Source: Phormidium tenue FACHB-1052
GTDB taxonomy: Bacteria > Cyanobacteriota > Cyanobacteriia > Phormidesmidales > Phormidesmidaceae
Reading direction: 5' to 3'
DNA: 64,000 bases
Assembly (NCBI RefSeq): GCF_014696675.1
Contig: NZ_JACJQN010000004.1
Location: forward strand, 1 to 64,000
Position numbers and translations under genes: made by a program. Below, piece after piece: positions 18,181 to 52,103 of this stretch; position 1 is the stretch's first letter, and each line of letters opens with the position of its first letter. The notes beneath the pieces are model-generated. The model made no database searches. It was not told where the DNA came from and worked only from the letters and a program-made list of their open reading frames with translations.

Positions 18181-18270
18181 ACCCCCTGCCTCCGATGGCT
18201 TACCCATTGCCGTCGGGGGCTGCGATCGCAACTTGACACATCGAGCAGCCCGTTTAACAAACAGCGATCG

Positions 18271-18587
18271 ATGCAAAGCAAAGTGGCACAGCTGTTTAGC
18301 TTACACAAGCCGATGCAAAGCAAAGTGGCACAGCTGTTTAGCTTACACAAGCCGATGCAAAGCAAAGTGGCACAGCTGTTTAGCTTACACAAGCCGATGC
18401 AAAGCAAAGTGGCACAGCTGTTTAGCTTACACAAGCCGATGCAAAGCAAAGTGGCACAGCTGTTTAGCTTACACAAGCCGATGCAAAGCAAAGTGGCACA
18501 GCTGTTTAGCTTACACAGGCCGATGTAAAGCAAAGTGGCACAGCTGTTTAGCTTACACAGGCCGATGCAAAGCAAAGTGGCACAACT
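18271..18587. repeat. 42-bp tandem direct repeat, about 7.5 copies
   Basis: Unit boundaries fall at 18271, 18313, 18355, 18397, 18439, 18481, 18523 and 18565 (last copy partial). Each unit begins ATGCAAAGCAAAGTGGCACA and contains GCTGTTTAGCTTACACAAGC. The first five units are identical; units 6 and 7 carry ACAGG in place of ACAAG, and unit 7 starts ATGTAAAG. There are no unique spacers, so this is not a CRISPR array. Because 42 is divisible by three, open frames run through it on both strands, repeating 14 codons (MQSKVAQLFSLHKP on one frame); I regard these as shadows of the repeat. Confidence 0.95.
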
Positions 18588-18663
18588 GTGTGATGGTTTC
18601 AAAGGGCAAATTGCCAATTGCACACCGTGTTAAGTCAGGTTGACTCAGCAGTATTGATGGGCG

Positions 18664-19380: not shown

Positions 19381-19467
19381 GAGGGAGGGGTGAGGGGTGA
19401 GGGGTGAGGGGTGATGGGTGAGGGGTGATGGGTGAGGGGTGATGGGTGAGGGGTGAGGGGTGAGGGA
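19381..19467. repeat. Heptanucleotide STRR-type array, G-rich on + strand
   Basis: About a dozen tandem units of GGGGTGA, several changed to TGGGTGA, fill this stretch. Short tandemly repeated repetitive (STRR) heptamers are known from cyanobacteria. The G-runs could form a quadruplex on the plus strand. It lies in the transcript tail between the methyltransferase (minus strand) and HEAT genes. Confidence 0.85.
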
Positions 19468-47291: not shown

Positions 47292-47299
47292 CTAATGTA

Positions 47300-47346
47300 T
47301 GGGCGATACTGGTTTCGAACCAGTGACCTCTTCCGTGTGAAGGGAG
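47300..47346 (-). tRNA. tRNA-Val(CAC) 3' fragment (attachment-site remnant)
   Basis: Read on the minus strand: a CAC anticodon loop (TTCACAC) with the 3' anticodon arm GGAAG, variable loop AGGTC, a perfect T-arm (ACTGG TTCGAAA CCAGT) and acceptor 3' strand ATCGCCC plus discriminator A. The match to a cyanobacterial tRNA-Val breaks down inside the 5' anticodon arm (CTCCC where CTTCC is expected), and no D-arm or 5' acceptor strand precedes it. The gene is therefore a 3' half, as left behind by integrases that target tRNA 3' ends. Confidence 0.85.
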
Positions 47347-47404
47347 TGGACAGAGGCGCTGAAACCCTTATGTATCAGTCATTCCAAGCGTCGCCTCAAA
47401 GGCT

Positions 47405-47425
47405 TGATAGTCAACTGATAGTCAA
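47405..47425. repeat. Two tandem TGATAGTCAA decamers
   Basis: TGATAGTCAA at 47405-47414 and again at 47416-47425, one base apart, about 60 bases beyond the break in the tRNA fragment. Short direct repeats at this place are typical of arm-type binding sites for tyrosine integrases. Inference. Confidence 0.5.
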
Positions 47426-47495
47426 AACCGGTCTTTACAATTCGCAATAGAATATTCTTGACCTGAAACACCGTGTCGATGGCTAGATTAGCAGG

Positions 47496-47666
47496 TCACT
47501 GATTACCCGGATCCTTATCTGCTTCAAGCTGCTCTAGCCGTTCTCGAATGAGAACGCGGAGCTTTGCTGCGAGGGGAAGTTCTGTCCAAGCCACATCATC
47601 GCGGCAGGTCTCGACTCGTTCTCGAATATCGCTGACATCAACAGAGATGCGATCGCGCTGACTCAC
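47496..47666 (-). CDS. Small hypothetical protein, 56 aa
   Basis: GTG start at 47666, product MSQRDRISVDVSDIRERVET, then CRDDVAWTELPLAAKLRVLI and RERLEQLEADKDPGNQ. It is charged, helical and ends with a Leu-heptad-like segment, similar in feel to small DNA-binding or antitoxin proteins of mobile elements. Codon use looks coding. No strong ribosome-binding site is seen. Lies just inside the tRNA-associated island. Confidence 0.55.
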   Translation of the reverse strand: MSQRDRISVDVSDIRERVETCRDDVAWTELPLAAKLRVLIRERLEQLEADKDPGNQ

Positions 47667-47889
47667 AAAGCATCAACCCTAGTACGGCTCACACCCCATG
47701 GTATCCGTGGGCTACGACAAGAAAGCAGTTGATGCCTGTGGAATCATTTGGCATCCAATAGAAGCCAGTGTGCTATTATGGCCTACAAGGCGACCCGCCT
47801 TAACCACTGGCCCTGGGTGAGGAGAAATTAGGCCGGTTCCGGATCCTGTGTTCGTTTGTCATTCACACGTTTCCCCAGGAGGAATTCCT

Positions 47890-48090
47890 ATGTCTGGTTC
47901 TCAGCAACTCTCAACACTTTTTGTTCCCTGCAACAGTGGCATGTGCCCAGCGCTCTACAGCGACGAGTATGGCCGGATGTTTGTGCAAGGGAATCGCCTC
48001 AGTGGTGCTGCCCGAGAAAGCCTTGCTCTCGCTGGTCACGAAGATGTGGTTGAACTCACCCCAGAGCTCATCGCATTTATCCGTGGCTAA
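47890..48090 (+). CDS. Small hypothetical protein, 66 aa
   Basis: Start at 47890 (MSGSQQLSTLFVPCNSGMCP), chosen for AGGAGGAATTCCT directly upstream. The product has a CNSGMCP motif (CxxxxC) that may hold a metal or disulfide, then a YSDEYGRMFVQGNRLS segment and a helical, acidic end. Function unknown. It overlaps the 3' end of the convergent 48077-48655 gene by 14 bases. Confidence 0.65.
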   Translation: MSGSQQLSTLFVPCNSGMCPALYSDEYGRMFVQGNRLSGAARESLALAGHEDVVELTPELIAFIRG

Positions 48091-48655
48091 CGATTAAAAG
48101 TTCTTGATTACTGCTGAGTGGCTCTTCCGTACTTGGGGCAGCCACTTTTTCCTTGGCTACACTCTCATGCAGAAGTAGCTCATTTTCTACAAACTGGCGG
48201 AAGTCGTCTGAATGAACGTCACTTACCCGCGCCCAGTGCTGGCACACGGTTCGGTATCGAAAAAGCGATCGCGCATCTTGCTTGAATCCCTCAAAATAGA
48301 TTTCGCTGATAATCGCATTCTTAAAATTGACGTAGCCGATAAGCACTTGGTTGATGAGGAACTCTGAGATCTTCTCAATCTCCCATGCTTTCGTATCGAG
48401 GCCATTCGCCCGAGTAAAGCTCTCTAAGAGTGGTGGATTGTTGAGGATGCCGAAGAAAAGCTCACGATGGGCACTTATGACATCTCCTTGGGCAACACTG
48501 TAGCTAGTGGCAAACTGGTGCCGTACTTGCTCTATCAACACTTTCAAAGTGGCCCGAGTTGTAAACCACAACAGGATGTTGGCCACTGTGGCAATGAACG
48601 TGATCGCGACCATCAGTAGGTCAGCAAAGATTCCTGGTTCGATACCGCTGCTCAT
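48077..48655 (-). CDS. Hypothetical membrane-anchored protein, 192 aa
   Basis: From the ATG at 48655 (MSSGIEPGIF) the product has one strong transmembrane helix (LLMVAITFIATVANILLWF) followed by a helical cytoplasmic domain (LIEQVRHQFATSYSVAQGDV and EFLINQVLIGYVNFKNAIIS). This plan (N-terminal TM then soluble helices) recurs in many defence-island and stress proteins. No known domain. It shares its last 14 bases with the convergent small gene. Confidence 0.65.
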   Translation of the reverse strand: MSSGIEPGIFADLLMVAITFIATVANILLWFTTRATLKVLIEQVRHQFATSYSVAQGDVISAHRELFFGILNNPPLLESFTRANGLDTKAWEIEKISEFLINQVLIGYVNFKNAIISEIYFEGFKQDARSLFRYRTVCQHWARVSDVHSDDFRQFVENELLLHESVAKEKVAAPSTEEPLSSNQELLIVSHG

Positions 48656-48899
48656 AGCGCTCGTCCTAGTTGTTGAGCGTTCTGTGCCTTGAGGGTAGAG
48701 CAACGAAATGCGCCGTCAACAAAAAAACCTCTTGAGCATTGTTCTCGTGGGTTCTTATGCTTTTCCTCGAAACGAATAGCCATGGGTAGACGGTGCTTGT
48801 GCATGGGGCAGAAACCATGCAGGGCAAAGTGCCAACGGTTCTAACCAAAGGTTCTCCATGCCCTCTGTGGACGTTGTTATCTACGGAGGAAGTTTTCCC

Positions 48900-49280
48900 A
48901 TGACCCAAGGCGAAAGTGAGAATCGACTGACTGAGAGCGATCTCTATCAGTTCACCGGAACATCCCAGTGGTATCCCCATCCGCTGGGGCTTTTGTATAC
49001 GGATGGAGTGCTTTACCTAGCTGAGCGAGGCGGTGCCTTTTGGTTGCTGGATGCGATCGCATCATGGCAGTTCGACCCTCGAATCAGATTCGATCCAATG
49101 CTTCAAAGGATTCAGTTCTGGAAGCTAACGGTGAATTCCGACAGATCGGCAGTGCTGATCTGTGAGCGCGATTTAGACGATGTGGTCGTTACTCAGGAGA
49201 TTCCGTTTACGGATTTTCCCCTCGGATCGGTCACCATTTACTGCCAGAGTGGAGTGCTCTTGCTGCCATCTGAACACTAG
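48900..49280 (+). CDS. DUF6876 family protein
   Basis: A 126-residue protein from the ATG at 48900, set by GGAGGAAG eight bases upstream. It reads TESDLYQFTGTSQWYPHPLG, then LLYTDGVLYLAERGGAFWLL and DAIASWQFDPRIRFDPMLQ, which I recognise as DUF6876 (a short domain of unknown function seen with mobile DNA). No signal peptide. The upstream frame to 48858 is not needed. Confidence 0.8.
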   Translation: MTQGESENRLTESDLYQFTGTSQWYPHPLGLLYTDGVLYLAERGGAFWLLDAIASWQFDPRIRFDPMLQRIQFWKLTVNSDRSAVLICERDLDDVVVTQEIPFTDFPLGSVTIYCQSGVLLLPSEH

Positions 49281-49632
49281 ATGCCGCCTCCAGCTCAAGT
49301 AGGCCTCATGCAGGGATGTGGGCGAAAGGTTTTTGGACACTAGCCCTGCATGCTTTGTAACTTCGCATTTGGACTTGTCTAGTCTGGTAGAAGTGCGATC
49401 ACGGCTCTAGAGAATGCCGCCGCCTGTCTAATGTAAGGGGGGAGCTCAGCCTACAATCGGTAAATCGGTACTTACCCCCAGGGGGCATGTCCCTGGCCAT
49501 GTCGAGGGGCTCTCGCAAATAACCTTGCTAACCCCAATAGCAGCTTTCGCCTGTCCGCTGCCATGAAATGGTAGGTTACTGGTTATAGCACTATGTAATA
49601 TAGCGGTGTAAATTCCCGGTTCAGGTGCAAAA
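49281..49632. other. Non-coding stretch, 352 bases
   Basis: Between the DUF6876 gene and the GTG-start HEPN-like gene. It has G-runs and a CCCCCAGGGGG palindrome near 49478, but no ORF I can support. It contains the promoter of the 49633 gene, near the AT-rich end. Confidence 0.4.
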
Positions 49633-50562
49633 GTGGACGAAGAAATTGATTTAATGAAGCTCGTCATTGAAGTAGATGATGAACTCATCCGAGAGGGAGT
49701 AGAACCCTTTCAACGTCCCCTAGCTGCATGCATAAGAATTGCACAACGCCTGCAACCCAGGAGTAGTTTCAGTCTTCAAAGCGATCCACTTTTCAACGCC
49801 GTTAATCACATGTATAGCGAGCTATACCGCTCATCCGATCTTCACATACCACCTTTACATGTAGGCGCATTCATGTTTCGGGATGTGTTCTTTCCCTTGC
49901 GAATTCCAGTTATTTATGGCTCACCTGCAATCAATCCAGTCGATTTTTTAGCTGACATACCTGAGACACAAAAACGATGGCTATTTACTGACAAACAATC
50001 CGGATTGGCTTTTTTTGATCAGGTTATTGATCTCATGGATTTTGTGTACGGACTCAATGACCTTGAAAAAACAGGGCAGCTACCAGATAAAACAGTGGAG
50101 TGGTGGTATTTGGCAAAACAACAGCTTGAGGCAGCAGCAGCAACAGTATTAGGTTCATTTAACAAGCATGCTGTAATCCAGAATTGCTGTATCTCGACGG
50201 AACTGCTGCTGAAAGGTGCTCTTATAGCTAAAGGAATTGATGAGAAGACGTTGGCAAGTAAAAAACACGGCTACGGACACAATTTAGAGAAATTAGTAGA
50301 TAAAACCGCTGGACAGTTGCCCAATTTTGATACAGCAACTGTGTTGCTCGTAGTGAAACAGCTTCCAGACTACGTGAAAAGCCGCTATGTAGCCAACGAC
50401 TTTTCACGGTTGGTTCTTGGAAGCTTCTTAATGAATACCCAATTTATTGGCGGTGAAATTCTACGTCATTTTTCTGATCGCAGCTTTCGTTCAAACTTTA
50501 CAGCTGCGACAGACAATATTTGGAATTTAAGTCATAGAACATTTCCAAAACCAACAAAATGA
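49633..50562 (+). CDS. HEPN-like protein, 309 aa
   Basis: A 309-residue soluble protein with GTG start at 49633 (an ATG at 49654 is an alternative). Residues about 155-255 read as a HEPN-type helical domain: QLEAAAATVLGSF, NCCISTELLLKGALI and KKHGYGHNLEKLVDK, followed by the basic YVKSRYVANDFSRL. The N-terminal half is unrecognised. HEPN proteins are RNases or their inactive relatives in defence and toxin-antitoxin systems. The Rx4-6H pair is not clear here, so catalysis is uncertain. AT-rich, as the neighbour at 50709. Confidence 0.65.
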   Translation: MDEEIDLMKLVIEVDDELIREGVEPFQRPLAACIRIAQRLQPRSSFSLQSDPLFNAVNHMYSELYRSSDLHIPPLHVGAFMFRDVFFPLRIPVIYGSPAINPVDFLADIPETQKRWLFTDKQSGLAFFDQVIDLMDFVYGLNDLEKTGQLPDKTVEWWYLAKQQLEAAAATVLGSFNKHAVIQNCCISTELLLKGALIAKGIDEKTLASKKHGYGHNLEKLVDKTAGQLPNFDTATVLLVVKQLPDYVKSRYVANDFSRLVLGSFLMNTQFIGGEILRHFSDRSFRSNFTAATDNIWNLSHRTFPKPTK

Positions 50563-50708
50563 TGTGAGCCAACGAAAACACAACTGAAGATGGATGGCCT
50601 TGAACCATGTCTTCACTAGGCTATAAACGTAGACCAACGGTGCCTGTCATCCGCCGAAAAAGCCTTATACCTCATACTAATTAACCCTTAGCAGTTGGTG
50701 TATGGACG

Positions 50709-51572
50709 TCATGATGCACTGTTAAGCGGTGACGATGGGTCAAATCCATCTTCTATTGCTCGATCAAGTCCATCCAATAACTTCTTTGCTATTGCAAGTC
50801 CCCTAGCCCAGTCAGCATCCTGCTCTCCTGCGCGAAAATGTGCGGCATGAGCAGAACGATTACGAAGCTCACGAAAAAATTGAAATTCATGTGCTGTTTC
50901 ATGGGGGATGTATCCTTTTATCGCAAGATTGTCTATGAGATGTGGAATTTTGCGGGATAAGCTCATTAAGTTCCTACGATCAATTTCGTCGCCGGTTGTT
51001 GCCGTCAACCTCAACAATCGTTCTTCGACTAGGTTGTATGCCTGTAAAACAGCCGACTCAGGGGAAATTTGAAATAACGGATCGAGTGCATATTCGTTCT
51101 CCTCAATTTGTTGAGCGAGTCCGACAAATGCGAGTTCATCTTGCGACAAGTGCGATTTCAGCACATCTGATAAATCAACACCATATTCGGCAACGAGTAC
51201 CCTTTTAAAGAAAGAAATTATGCATTCTAGATAGTAGAAGACGCTCTCTGCATCGGGAAATCCGAACCTATGCTGAATTGTATTTCGATCGTCGATAAGC
51301 AATTCAATTATTGGACGTTCCGGCACTACAACATTATGATCGGCAAGTTTGTCAAATACTTCCCAGATGCCAAGTGTTTGAGGCTGTTTTGGTTTATAAA
51401 TACTTTCGCCTTTATCAATCAATAAGTCTTTCAAAATCAGCTCTACTGAATTAGCTAAATGCAGAATAACGAATTTGAATTTTCGAGGCTTGTTAGCACG
51501 ATAAAGCTCGACCGCGTGAGCGATCAATTCCATTGAACTGACGAAGAGGGGAGACTTATCACTCATAATCAA
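50709..51572 (-). CDS. Two-HEPN-domain protein, 287 aa
   Basis: A 287-residue protein with two helical segments, each bearing an RN-x3-H signature: DDRNTIQHRFGFPD near residue 95 and LRNRSAHAAHF near residue 242. R-x4-6-H with a polar residue after Arg is the catalytic motif of HEPN ribonucleases (as in Cas13, LsoA-type and Abi proteins). The first half begins VSSMELIAHAVELYRAN and contains LHLANSVELILKDLLIDKGE, typical of HEPN-like helices. The next gene (49633) runs toward it. A defence function is plausible but not shown. Confidence 0.7.
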   Translation of the reverse strand: MIMSDKSPLFVSSMELIAHAVELYRANKPRKFKFVILHLANSVELILKDLLIDKGESIYKPKQPQTLGIWEVFDKLADHNVVVPERPIIELLIDDRNTIQHRFGFPDAESVFYYLECIISFFKRVLVAEYGVDLSDVLKSHLSQDELAFVGLAQQIEENEYALDPLFQISPESAVLQAYNLVEERLLRLTATTGDEIDRRNLMSLSRKIPHLIDNLAIKGYIPHETAHEFQFFRELRNRSAHAAHFRAGEQDADWARGLAIAKKLLDGLDRAIEDGFDPSSPLNSAS

Positions 51573-52103
51573 TTAAGTAGGGGTATAACTGTTATTAGAG
51601 AGAAAATTTTTGTCTAATGTTCCTATAGGGGTGACTAGGTAGAATGAATCAGTATAACCAGCCCTTCAACTCCAGCCGTGAGTGCACCAATCATCTTCAA
51701 CCTTCCTTTAACCTAGGCTCCTTGCGGTTCAACGGTGCGATCGCACTCACGCCAACTGCGGCGATTTCTCTCACCCCTACACAACTAACACCGCCGCACC
51801 ACCCCGCTACTTATCCACAATCACCTGAATCGCCTGGAATGTTATAAATTTGGGCTGGTGAATTATGCGATCGCCCTTAATTTACTGACCTGAACAGCAG
51901 CCCTAGCTCACTTCCATGCTGATTGAGCAAGTCATCCTGTACCGCCCTTGAGCAAGTAAACGCCCCGCTATTTGTTGCCTGGCCTTCGCACCGTCAGCTT
52001 GCTCTCATCTGAGGGGTAGCCATCCAACGCCAGGGAGTAGCCTCCGTTCAGAAACCTCTAGGAAAATAAATGTACCAGCATGGCTGAGGCACTGACCTCG
52101 TCA
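51573..52103. other. Non-coding stretch, 531 bases
   Basis: Between the HEPN gene and the PBP gene. HIP1 cores occur at several points. A 67-residue open frame on the plus strand is Pro/Thr-rich and low in coding character, so I do not call it. No repeat or terminator seen. Confidence 0.4.

Follow-up and report, generated by a model that had tools for sequence, protein, structure and literature searches.

HEPN proteins typically homodimerise, and Cas13 pairs two HEPN domains within one chain (PMC12165695). The same source reports twelve further AlphaFold clusters, all uncharacterised, in which two HEPN domains dimerise intramolecularly, and Csx1 and Swt1 are described as HEPN dyads in PMC3710099. 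According to the latter paper, DUF3644 is a HEPN family, and the EC042_2821 family overlaps with it, has the motif, is fused to a REase and occurs in R-M operons; it also describes fusions of HEPN domains to DNases, HNH included, and names an Ex3K element as a second conserved HEPN feature. In the HepT toxin SO_3166, the exchange R97G or H102A in the motif RNIAVH abolishes toxicity (PMC4621449). DUF3644-type HEPN domains, HEPN dyads (Csx1, Swt1, Cas13) and HEPN-DNase fusions are known already. The combination of a DUF3644-HEPN with a second HEPN domain is not among the EC042_2821/DUF3644 fusions tabulated in PMC3710099, and a search of open-licence papers on DUF3644, EC042_2821, PDC-S19 and HEPN dyads led just to PMC3710099 and PMC12165695, which is no proof that such a protein is unpublished.

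A gene with this combination, here called the twin-HEPN gene, lies in the 64-kb stretch of Phormidium tenue DNA that was analysed (the window). Its product is best read, with a probability of about 55%, as a single-chain HEPN RNase effector of a mobile anti-phage defence, in which the two motifs would form one composite site within the chain.

The gene and its two motifs

The open reading frame at 50709-51572 on the minus strand, from which the original prediction started, is real. In these earlier bounds it is TTG-initiated and has 287 codons; both close homologues begin at the position of the ATG at 51566, with MSDKSPLF, and the protein therefore probably has 285 amino acids. Residue numbers (R96, H101, R237, H242) are counted from the TTG at 51572.

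50709..51566, minus strand: twin-HEPN gene, 285 aa from the ATG at 51566
51270..51287, minus strand: motif 1, RNTIQH (R96-H101), R and H invariant in 9/9 aligned domain-1 rows
50847..50864, minus strand: motif 2, RNRSAH (R237-H242), RNRAAH in the G420 orthologue (L004) and in a Planktothrix plasmid fragment, missing from each of the two copies in the L007 relative

The two RN-x3-H motifs that had been noticed in one chain are indeed present, RNTIQH and RNRSAH being the only R-x4-H matches of the protein, with N after the R in both. A plain R-x4-H pair is common in shuffled versions of the sequence (11%), and it is thus the polar residue that is the unusual part: at least two R[NDH]x3H were obtained in 0.32% and at least two RNx3H in 0.025% of 20,000 shuffles. 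Among the 49 ATG-started ORFs of at least 150 aa in the window, two contain R[NDH]x3H, and only the twin-HEPN ORF contains it twice. The motif pair is beyond chance.

With a GC content of 42% vs 56% for the whole window, the gene is foreign in base composition, and its distribution is patchy. Full-length relatives were found in 2/63 genomes of its own family and in 2/386 genomes of a phylum sample (self included in both counts), and in 1/38 genomes of the family of G420; weak matches to domain 1 only (G036, G015, G447) are excluded from these numbers. A plasmid search for relatives gave one fragment, from Planktothrix; no relative was found in viral contigs by two scans with few peptide patterns each, nor was one found in phages. 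Of two scans of genome contigs, the first found none and the second, with two patterns, only L007 (L007 and L002 are one gene). Compared with the orthologue in G420, dN is 0.15 and synonymous sites are at or near saturation, as is expected from purifying selection, which is seen on domain 1 and domain 2 alike.

The two HEPN domains and their relatives

51174..51551, minus strand: HEPN domain 1, residues 8-133, DUF3644-like (Pfam PF12358 and VIA)
51429..51443, minus strand: Ex3K element ELILK (E44-K48) in domain 1, ExxxK in 8/9 aligned rows
50745..51086, minus strand: HEPN domain 2, residues 163-276 (VIA on the predicted model of residues 145-287)

Domain 1 is matched by Pfam DUF3644 (PF12358) at residues 11-136 with 30.0 bits, which is borderline, 2.4 bits above the cut-off of 27.6; the same profile reaches 29.2 bits in L004 and 24.7 bits, below the cut-off, in L002/L007, and its six-frame search of the own genome (G000) gave no match. 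Nine domain-1 rows were aligned (the window protein, L004, L007, L005, L009, L010, L011, L003 and L014); L008 and L002 stand for the genes of L005 and L007 and were left out, as were L016, L017 and L018, which are broken or partial, and also L012, L013, L015 and L027, which by eye read R-x4-H. Only Y59, R96 and H101 (twin-HEPN numbering) are invariant in this alignment, so that motif 1 withstands the conservation check. At E <0.001 the nine-row profile matched three entries of the PDB, each bearing the name HepN-family toxin; the strongest match is the HepT toxin SO_3166 (5yep, E 1.9e-5) with its RNIAVH aligned to motif 1. The whole twin-HEPN protein, compared with solved structures by sequence, resembled none (best E 0.63).

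A full-length model was predicted from two sequences (best of five: pLDDT 75.5, pTM 0.66), and its HEPN matches in VIA fall within residues 4-132. They include 1ufb (Z 9.9, 2.9 Å, 115 aligned), 1o3u (Z 9.5, 3.1 Å, 109 aligned), 5yep (Z 9.0, 3.2 Å, 115 aligned) and 6m6u (Z 8.9, 3.1 Å, 112 aligned), and in this model as in that of domain 2, Z values of 9-10 are lower than the value of about 13 that helical bundles, by the note to VIA, can reach by chance. In rows 5 and 11 (Z 8.8 and 8.0) stand ROQ-domain entries of Roquin, which contain a HEPN domain, and the first other row not recognised as HEPN is 9gy4_E with Z 6.6. In Foldseek, the HEPN match 1o3u ranks only 17th for the full-length model (E 2.4, probability 0.69), and neither this model nor that of domain 2 had a match at E <0.001. 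Helical bundles can reach the Z of domain 1 by chance, but the sequence agrees with the HEPN fold in the profile match to SO_3166. The HEPN character of domain 1 that had been claimed is thus borne out by sequence (PF12358, SO_3166) and by the predicted fold. Judged by its sequence, domain 1 is a divergent HEPN domain of the DUF3644/EC042_2821 type, looks like a real active site and is very probably an RNase site.

Domain 2 was folded alone as residues 145-287, using three sequences (best of five: pLDDT 74.1, pTM 0.72; worst 49.2). The top 14 VIA rows of this model all belong to the HEPN superfamily, with Z values from 9.5 (2hsb; 3.2 Å, 109 aligned) over 8.7 (2q00) to 5.7, and the next, unrelated row has 5.3; the other top rows are HepT-type toxins, HI0074, TT1696 (1ufb, presumably a HEPN protein), ST0689 and MtlR. 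That 2hsb, 2q00, 1jog and the MtlR entry 3brj are HEPN domains is stated in PMC3710099. For the remaining top rows other than TT1696, the assignment was taken from their titles. Foldseek places 2hsb at a probability of 0.98, which is weak by its E-value of 0.68. The only Pfam match is DUF4145 (PF13643) with 17.2 bits, below the cut-off of 23.1, and the domain-2 profile showed no resemblance to solved structures, the best E of 0.17 being to a de novo protein; in the phylum sample it matched 2/386 genomes, G000 and G420. An origin of the two domains by duplication was considered and is not shown, since their hhalign alignment, which spans 109 columns and brings the two RN motifs into line, has a probability of only 4% (P 0.011). 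Domain 2 is accordingly predicted to be a HEPN fold at the level of its model, to which extent the original prediction is upheld here too, and it is less surely an active site than domain 1.

The relatives bear differently on the two motifs. The orthologue of G420 (L004), which belongs to another family of the same class, is 78% identical and has RNRAAH as motif 2. RNRAAH also occurs in a 55-residue remnant on a plasmid of Planktothrix agardhii, adjoining a Tn3 transposase gene, so that an RNx3H at motif 2 is present in three sequences: the window protein, the G420 orthologue and this fragment. In the relative from Nodosilinea nodulosa PCC 7104 (L007:6001-7326, 45% identical), motif 1 is kept as RNTIQH, and domain 2 is found in two copies, in which the motif-2 sites read RNVAFS and AKDNFG; its C-terminus is an HNH domain (PF01844, 34.7 bits, profile positions 1-37 of 47), which is an apparent change of effector. 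The conservation that had been expected of both motifs thus holds for motif 2 in L004 and Planktothrix and fails in both L007 copies, and the family therefore does not need two catalytic motifs. Motif 1 is thus the firm site, as L007 keeps it too; motif 2 persists in one branch and has disappeared from another.

A close rival explanation, doubtful and still to be taken seriously, is that domain 1 alone is the RNase, acting as a homodimer of two chains like most HEPN proteins, and that domain 2 serves as a HEPN for regulation or dimerisation, its motif being incidental or decaying. The L007 relative, with motif 1 kept and both domain-2 copies without motif 2, would fit this explanation, as would the higher dN of domain 2 relative to G420 (0.20 vs 0.08 in domain 1) and the statement in PMC12165695 that other HEPN proteins typically homodimerise; the RNx3H of motif 2 has, however, been kept in the window protein, in G420 and in the Planktothrix remnant despite the saturation or near-saturation of synonymous sites relative to G420.

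The gene setting differs in each of G420, G008 and Planktothrix. Several DUF3644 relatives have R-M surroundings: L009 adjoins N6_N4_Mtase, L010 adjoins an Mrr_N protein, and L005/L008 (one gene) adjoins HsdM-like and HsdS-like ORFs recognised by eye; next to the twin-HEPN gene no R-M gene was recognised. Around the G420 orthologue (L030, 7194-10923), HigBA-like, Uma2-like and GNAT-like genes were seen by eye, together with a DUF2281-PIN pair. Two other cyanobacteria encode HEPN-like proteins that continue in Cys-rich, zinc-ribbon-like tails (L003:1447-2364 with RNSIEH and L027:702-1778 with RNDIEH), both with no Pfam match at the thresholds used.

The mobile insertion and the convergent neighbour

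47296..47346, minus strand: displaced 3' half of tRNA-Val(CAC), marking where the insertion begins on the left (the site is empty in G017 and G010)
47347..52046, no strand: left end of the insertion with the twin-HEPN gene (homology of relatives resumes at 52046-52052)
49633..50562, plus strand: convergent neighbour, 309 aa, possible degenerate HEPN, outside the proposed system (Pfam, motif scan, co-occurrence)

The displaced half of tRNA-Val adjoins an AI-2E-like gene (named by eye), and an intact tRNA-Val lies at 112703-112774 of the contig. The site is uninterrupted in G017 and G010, where this left flank runs through an intact tRNA-Val straight into the same right flank, and about 65.4 kb have therefore been inserted here, spanning 47347-112700 of the contig and thus reaching past the end of the 64-kb window. 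A tyrosine recombinase is encoded at 111314-112486, 0.2 kb from the intact tRNA-Val, and the cargo includes RepA, ParA, a TrwB/TraD coupling protein, a PDC-S02 protein and, at 79674-84655, a complete QatA-QatB-QatC-QatD anti-phage set; an RND-efflux-like cluster was also recognised by eye. The tRNA-Val site of G007 was rejected as evidence, as its two flanks are in opposite orientation and indicate a rearrangement.

The twin-HEPN gene belongs to the left 4.7 kb of the insertion, beyond which homology to relatives resumes at 52046-52052 in 5/5 loci on the FtsI side and from 52104 in a sixth (L061). The insertion is composite, as 52046-68079 is common, with gaps, to G012 and partly to G016 and G022, in another setting and at about 85-93% identity. 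This 16-kb block holds genes that look chromosome-like by eye (a second FtsI/PBP, an M23 peptidase, TPR and VKOR-like genes) and is closely followed by a further tyrosine recombinase (68296-69210). Rearrangement may have contributed to the origin of this block or of the arrangement as a whole. The left-end module at 47335-49352, made up of a DUF6876 gene and one for a membrane-like protein, has a counterpart of 86% identity in G010 (L047) and one also in G017, and in G010 it adjoins genes that look plasmid-borne by eye, which suggests a replicon form of a related element. Non-coding DNA upstream of the twin-HEPN gene (51586-51900) contains short dispersed repeats found in many places in the genus, and elsewhere in the window a 42-bp unit is repeated in tandem 7.6 times (98% match, 18269-18589) and GAGGGGT 11.7 times (19385-19466).

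The setting bears on the view that the protein is a non-catalytic RNA-binding or housekeeping protein of HEPN fold with no defence role, which is improbable. Some HEPN domains are, according to PMC3710099, likely inactive nucleic acid binders, but here divergent homologues, several of them next to R-M genes, retain both motif 1 and Ex3K, full-length relatives are as rare as 2/63 genomes even within the family (self included), and the gene lies on a mobile island with a Qat system.

On its one side the twin-HEPN gene is followed by an FtsI/PBP gene (by eye) and on the other by the 309-aa gene, which is convergent with it, as had been noted. This neighbour had also been credited with a HEPN-like domain; its resemblance to HEPN in Pfam amounts to only 11.7 bits vs a cut-off of 22, and no R[NDH]x3-5H is present. 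It is very unlikely that the two genes form a toxin-antitoxin pair, and a defence pair, which had been proposed as well, is not supported. The genes are adjacent at the same end of the insertion and both have about 42% GC, but they are convergent and form no operon, the neighbour lacks the motif, and they do not co-occur in the other genomes checked. Among 96 genomes (own included), homologues of the neighbour were found in G000, G081 (82%), G055 (48%), G051 and weakly in G093, of which only G000 has the twin-HEPN gene, whereas G008 and G420 have the twin-HEPN gene and no neighbour; as both genes are together only in G000, the pairing was rejected. An MNT domain was sought in the neighbour and the two ORFs beyond, with no Pfam match at E up to 1. 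No Rfam family was found in the window at gathering scores, so that no candidate for an RNA antitoxin was seen, and a scan for promoters and terminators gave counts that differ from those of shuffled sequence by no more than about one standard deviation.

Proposed function and comparison with known systems

Since both HEPN domains of the chain carry an intact motif, a composite site formed intramolecularly is the preferred reading. Domain 1 would be an active-type DUF3644/EC042_2821 HEPN, against which domain 2, a different HEPN, would pack, so that the two R-x4-H motifs may form one RNase site within one chain and not by homodimerisation. The protein would be silent until infection alters its conformation or partner state; once activated, it could cleave RNA (tRNA or mRNA) and thereby stop the infected cell. 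The proposal builds on both motifs, on the predicted HEPN fold of both domains, on the conservation of motif 1 across divergent homologues, on the purifying selection, foreign base composition and patchy distribution described above, and on the location in a tRNA-Val insertion with a Qat system; RNase activity, a face-to-face pairing of the motifs, the trigger and an abortive outcome are inferred. Activation by phage and RNA cleavage are suggested by the family (DUF3644, EC042_2821) and the island. What counts against the proposal is the loss of motif 2 in both copies of L007, the thin Pfam margin, the weak Foldseek result, the VIA Z values under the chance level for helical bundles and the lack of a recognised R-M gene alongside. 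A defence role, which had been considered before, finds support in the DUF3644 family, in a PADLOC candidate family and in the mobile island with its full Qat set; a partner, sensor or trigger of the protein was not identified.

It may be, though this is put forward tentatively, that the protein is a non-CRISPR immune RNase of about 285 residues, the active site of which is made of two unlike HEPN domains, a DUF3644-type catalytic half and one of another HEPN family. Since the second half is duplicated, motif-less and topped by HNH in a close relative (L007), the lineage would then have exchanged an immune effector that cuts RNA for one that cuts DNA. HEPN RNases typically need two chains per site, and Cas13 joins both halves in one chain; if the reading is true, a twin-HEPN protein of 285 residues would be a very small, testable model for the origin of intramolecular HEPN sites, with the Nodosilinea relative as a natural loss-of-motif comparison. 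The protein also gives a mobile element of cyanobacteria with a full Qat system one more predicted effector.

HEPN dyads such as Csx1 (MJ1666 type), Swt1 and Cas13 share with the twin-HEPN protein the two HEPN domains per chain and a possible intramolecular site, but the latter has no recognisable CARF/Rossmann, PIN or guide-RNA part, and no CRISPR array was found. That it could be a minimal, RNA-guided RNase of the Cas13 kind, as two RNx3H motifs per chain might suggest, is extremely unlikely: domain 1 has DUF3644 and HepT as its listed sequence matches, and no CRISPR-like array was detected in 121 kb of the contig or in the stretches fetched around two homologues (L007, L030) by a scan for identical 20-mers that occur three times, 45-110 bases apart, which is blind to degenerate repeats. 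Structures of type VI, AbiD/F, PrrC/RloC, KEN and Swt1 proteins are not among the 50 VIA rows listed for either model, an absence that proves nothing, and NCBIfam and PHROGs gave no match below E 0.02.

The PADLOC family PDC-S19 matches domain 1 at 26.1 bits (32.6 in L004) and whole DUF3644 relatives at up to 466 bits; the best profile is covered only at 33-142 of its 355 positions, the rest being unmatched in the twin-HEPN protein. With HepT SO_3166 (5yep/6m6u), the likeness lies in the aligned, essential RNx3H (profile E 1.9e-5, VIA Z 9.0), but HepT is a single HEPN domain accompanied by an MNT antitoxin, and the scan of the neighbours gave no MNT match. DUF3644/EC042_2821 proteins are alike in that domain 1 is above the PF12358 cut-off and keeps Ex3K and Rx4H. 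Several members of that family are found in R-M surroundings, unlike the twin-HEPN gene with its lack of a recognised R-M neighbour, and the REase-like C-terminal domain that is common, not universal, in EC042_2821 is absent, its PF18740 giving no match at E up to 1 and being present in L005 and L009; a second HEPN domain is found in its place. The Nodosilinea protein has the same order of a DUF3644-like domain 1 with RNTIQH and then domain 2, and it differs in that its domain 2 is present twice, motif-less in both copies, and is followed by a C-terminal HNH domain.
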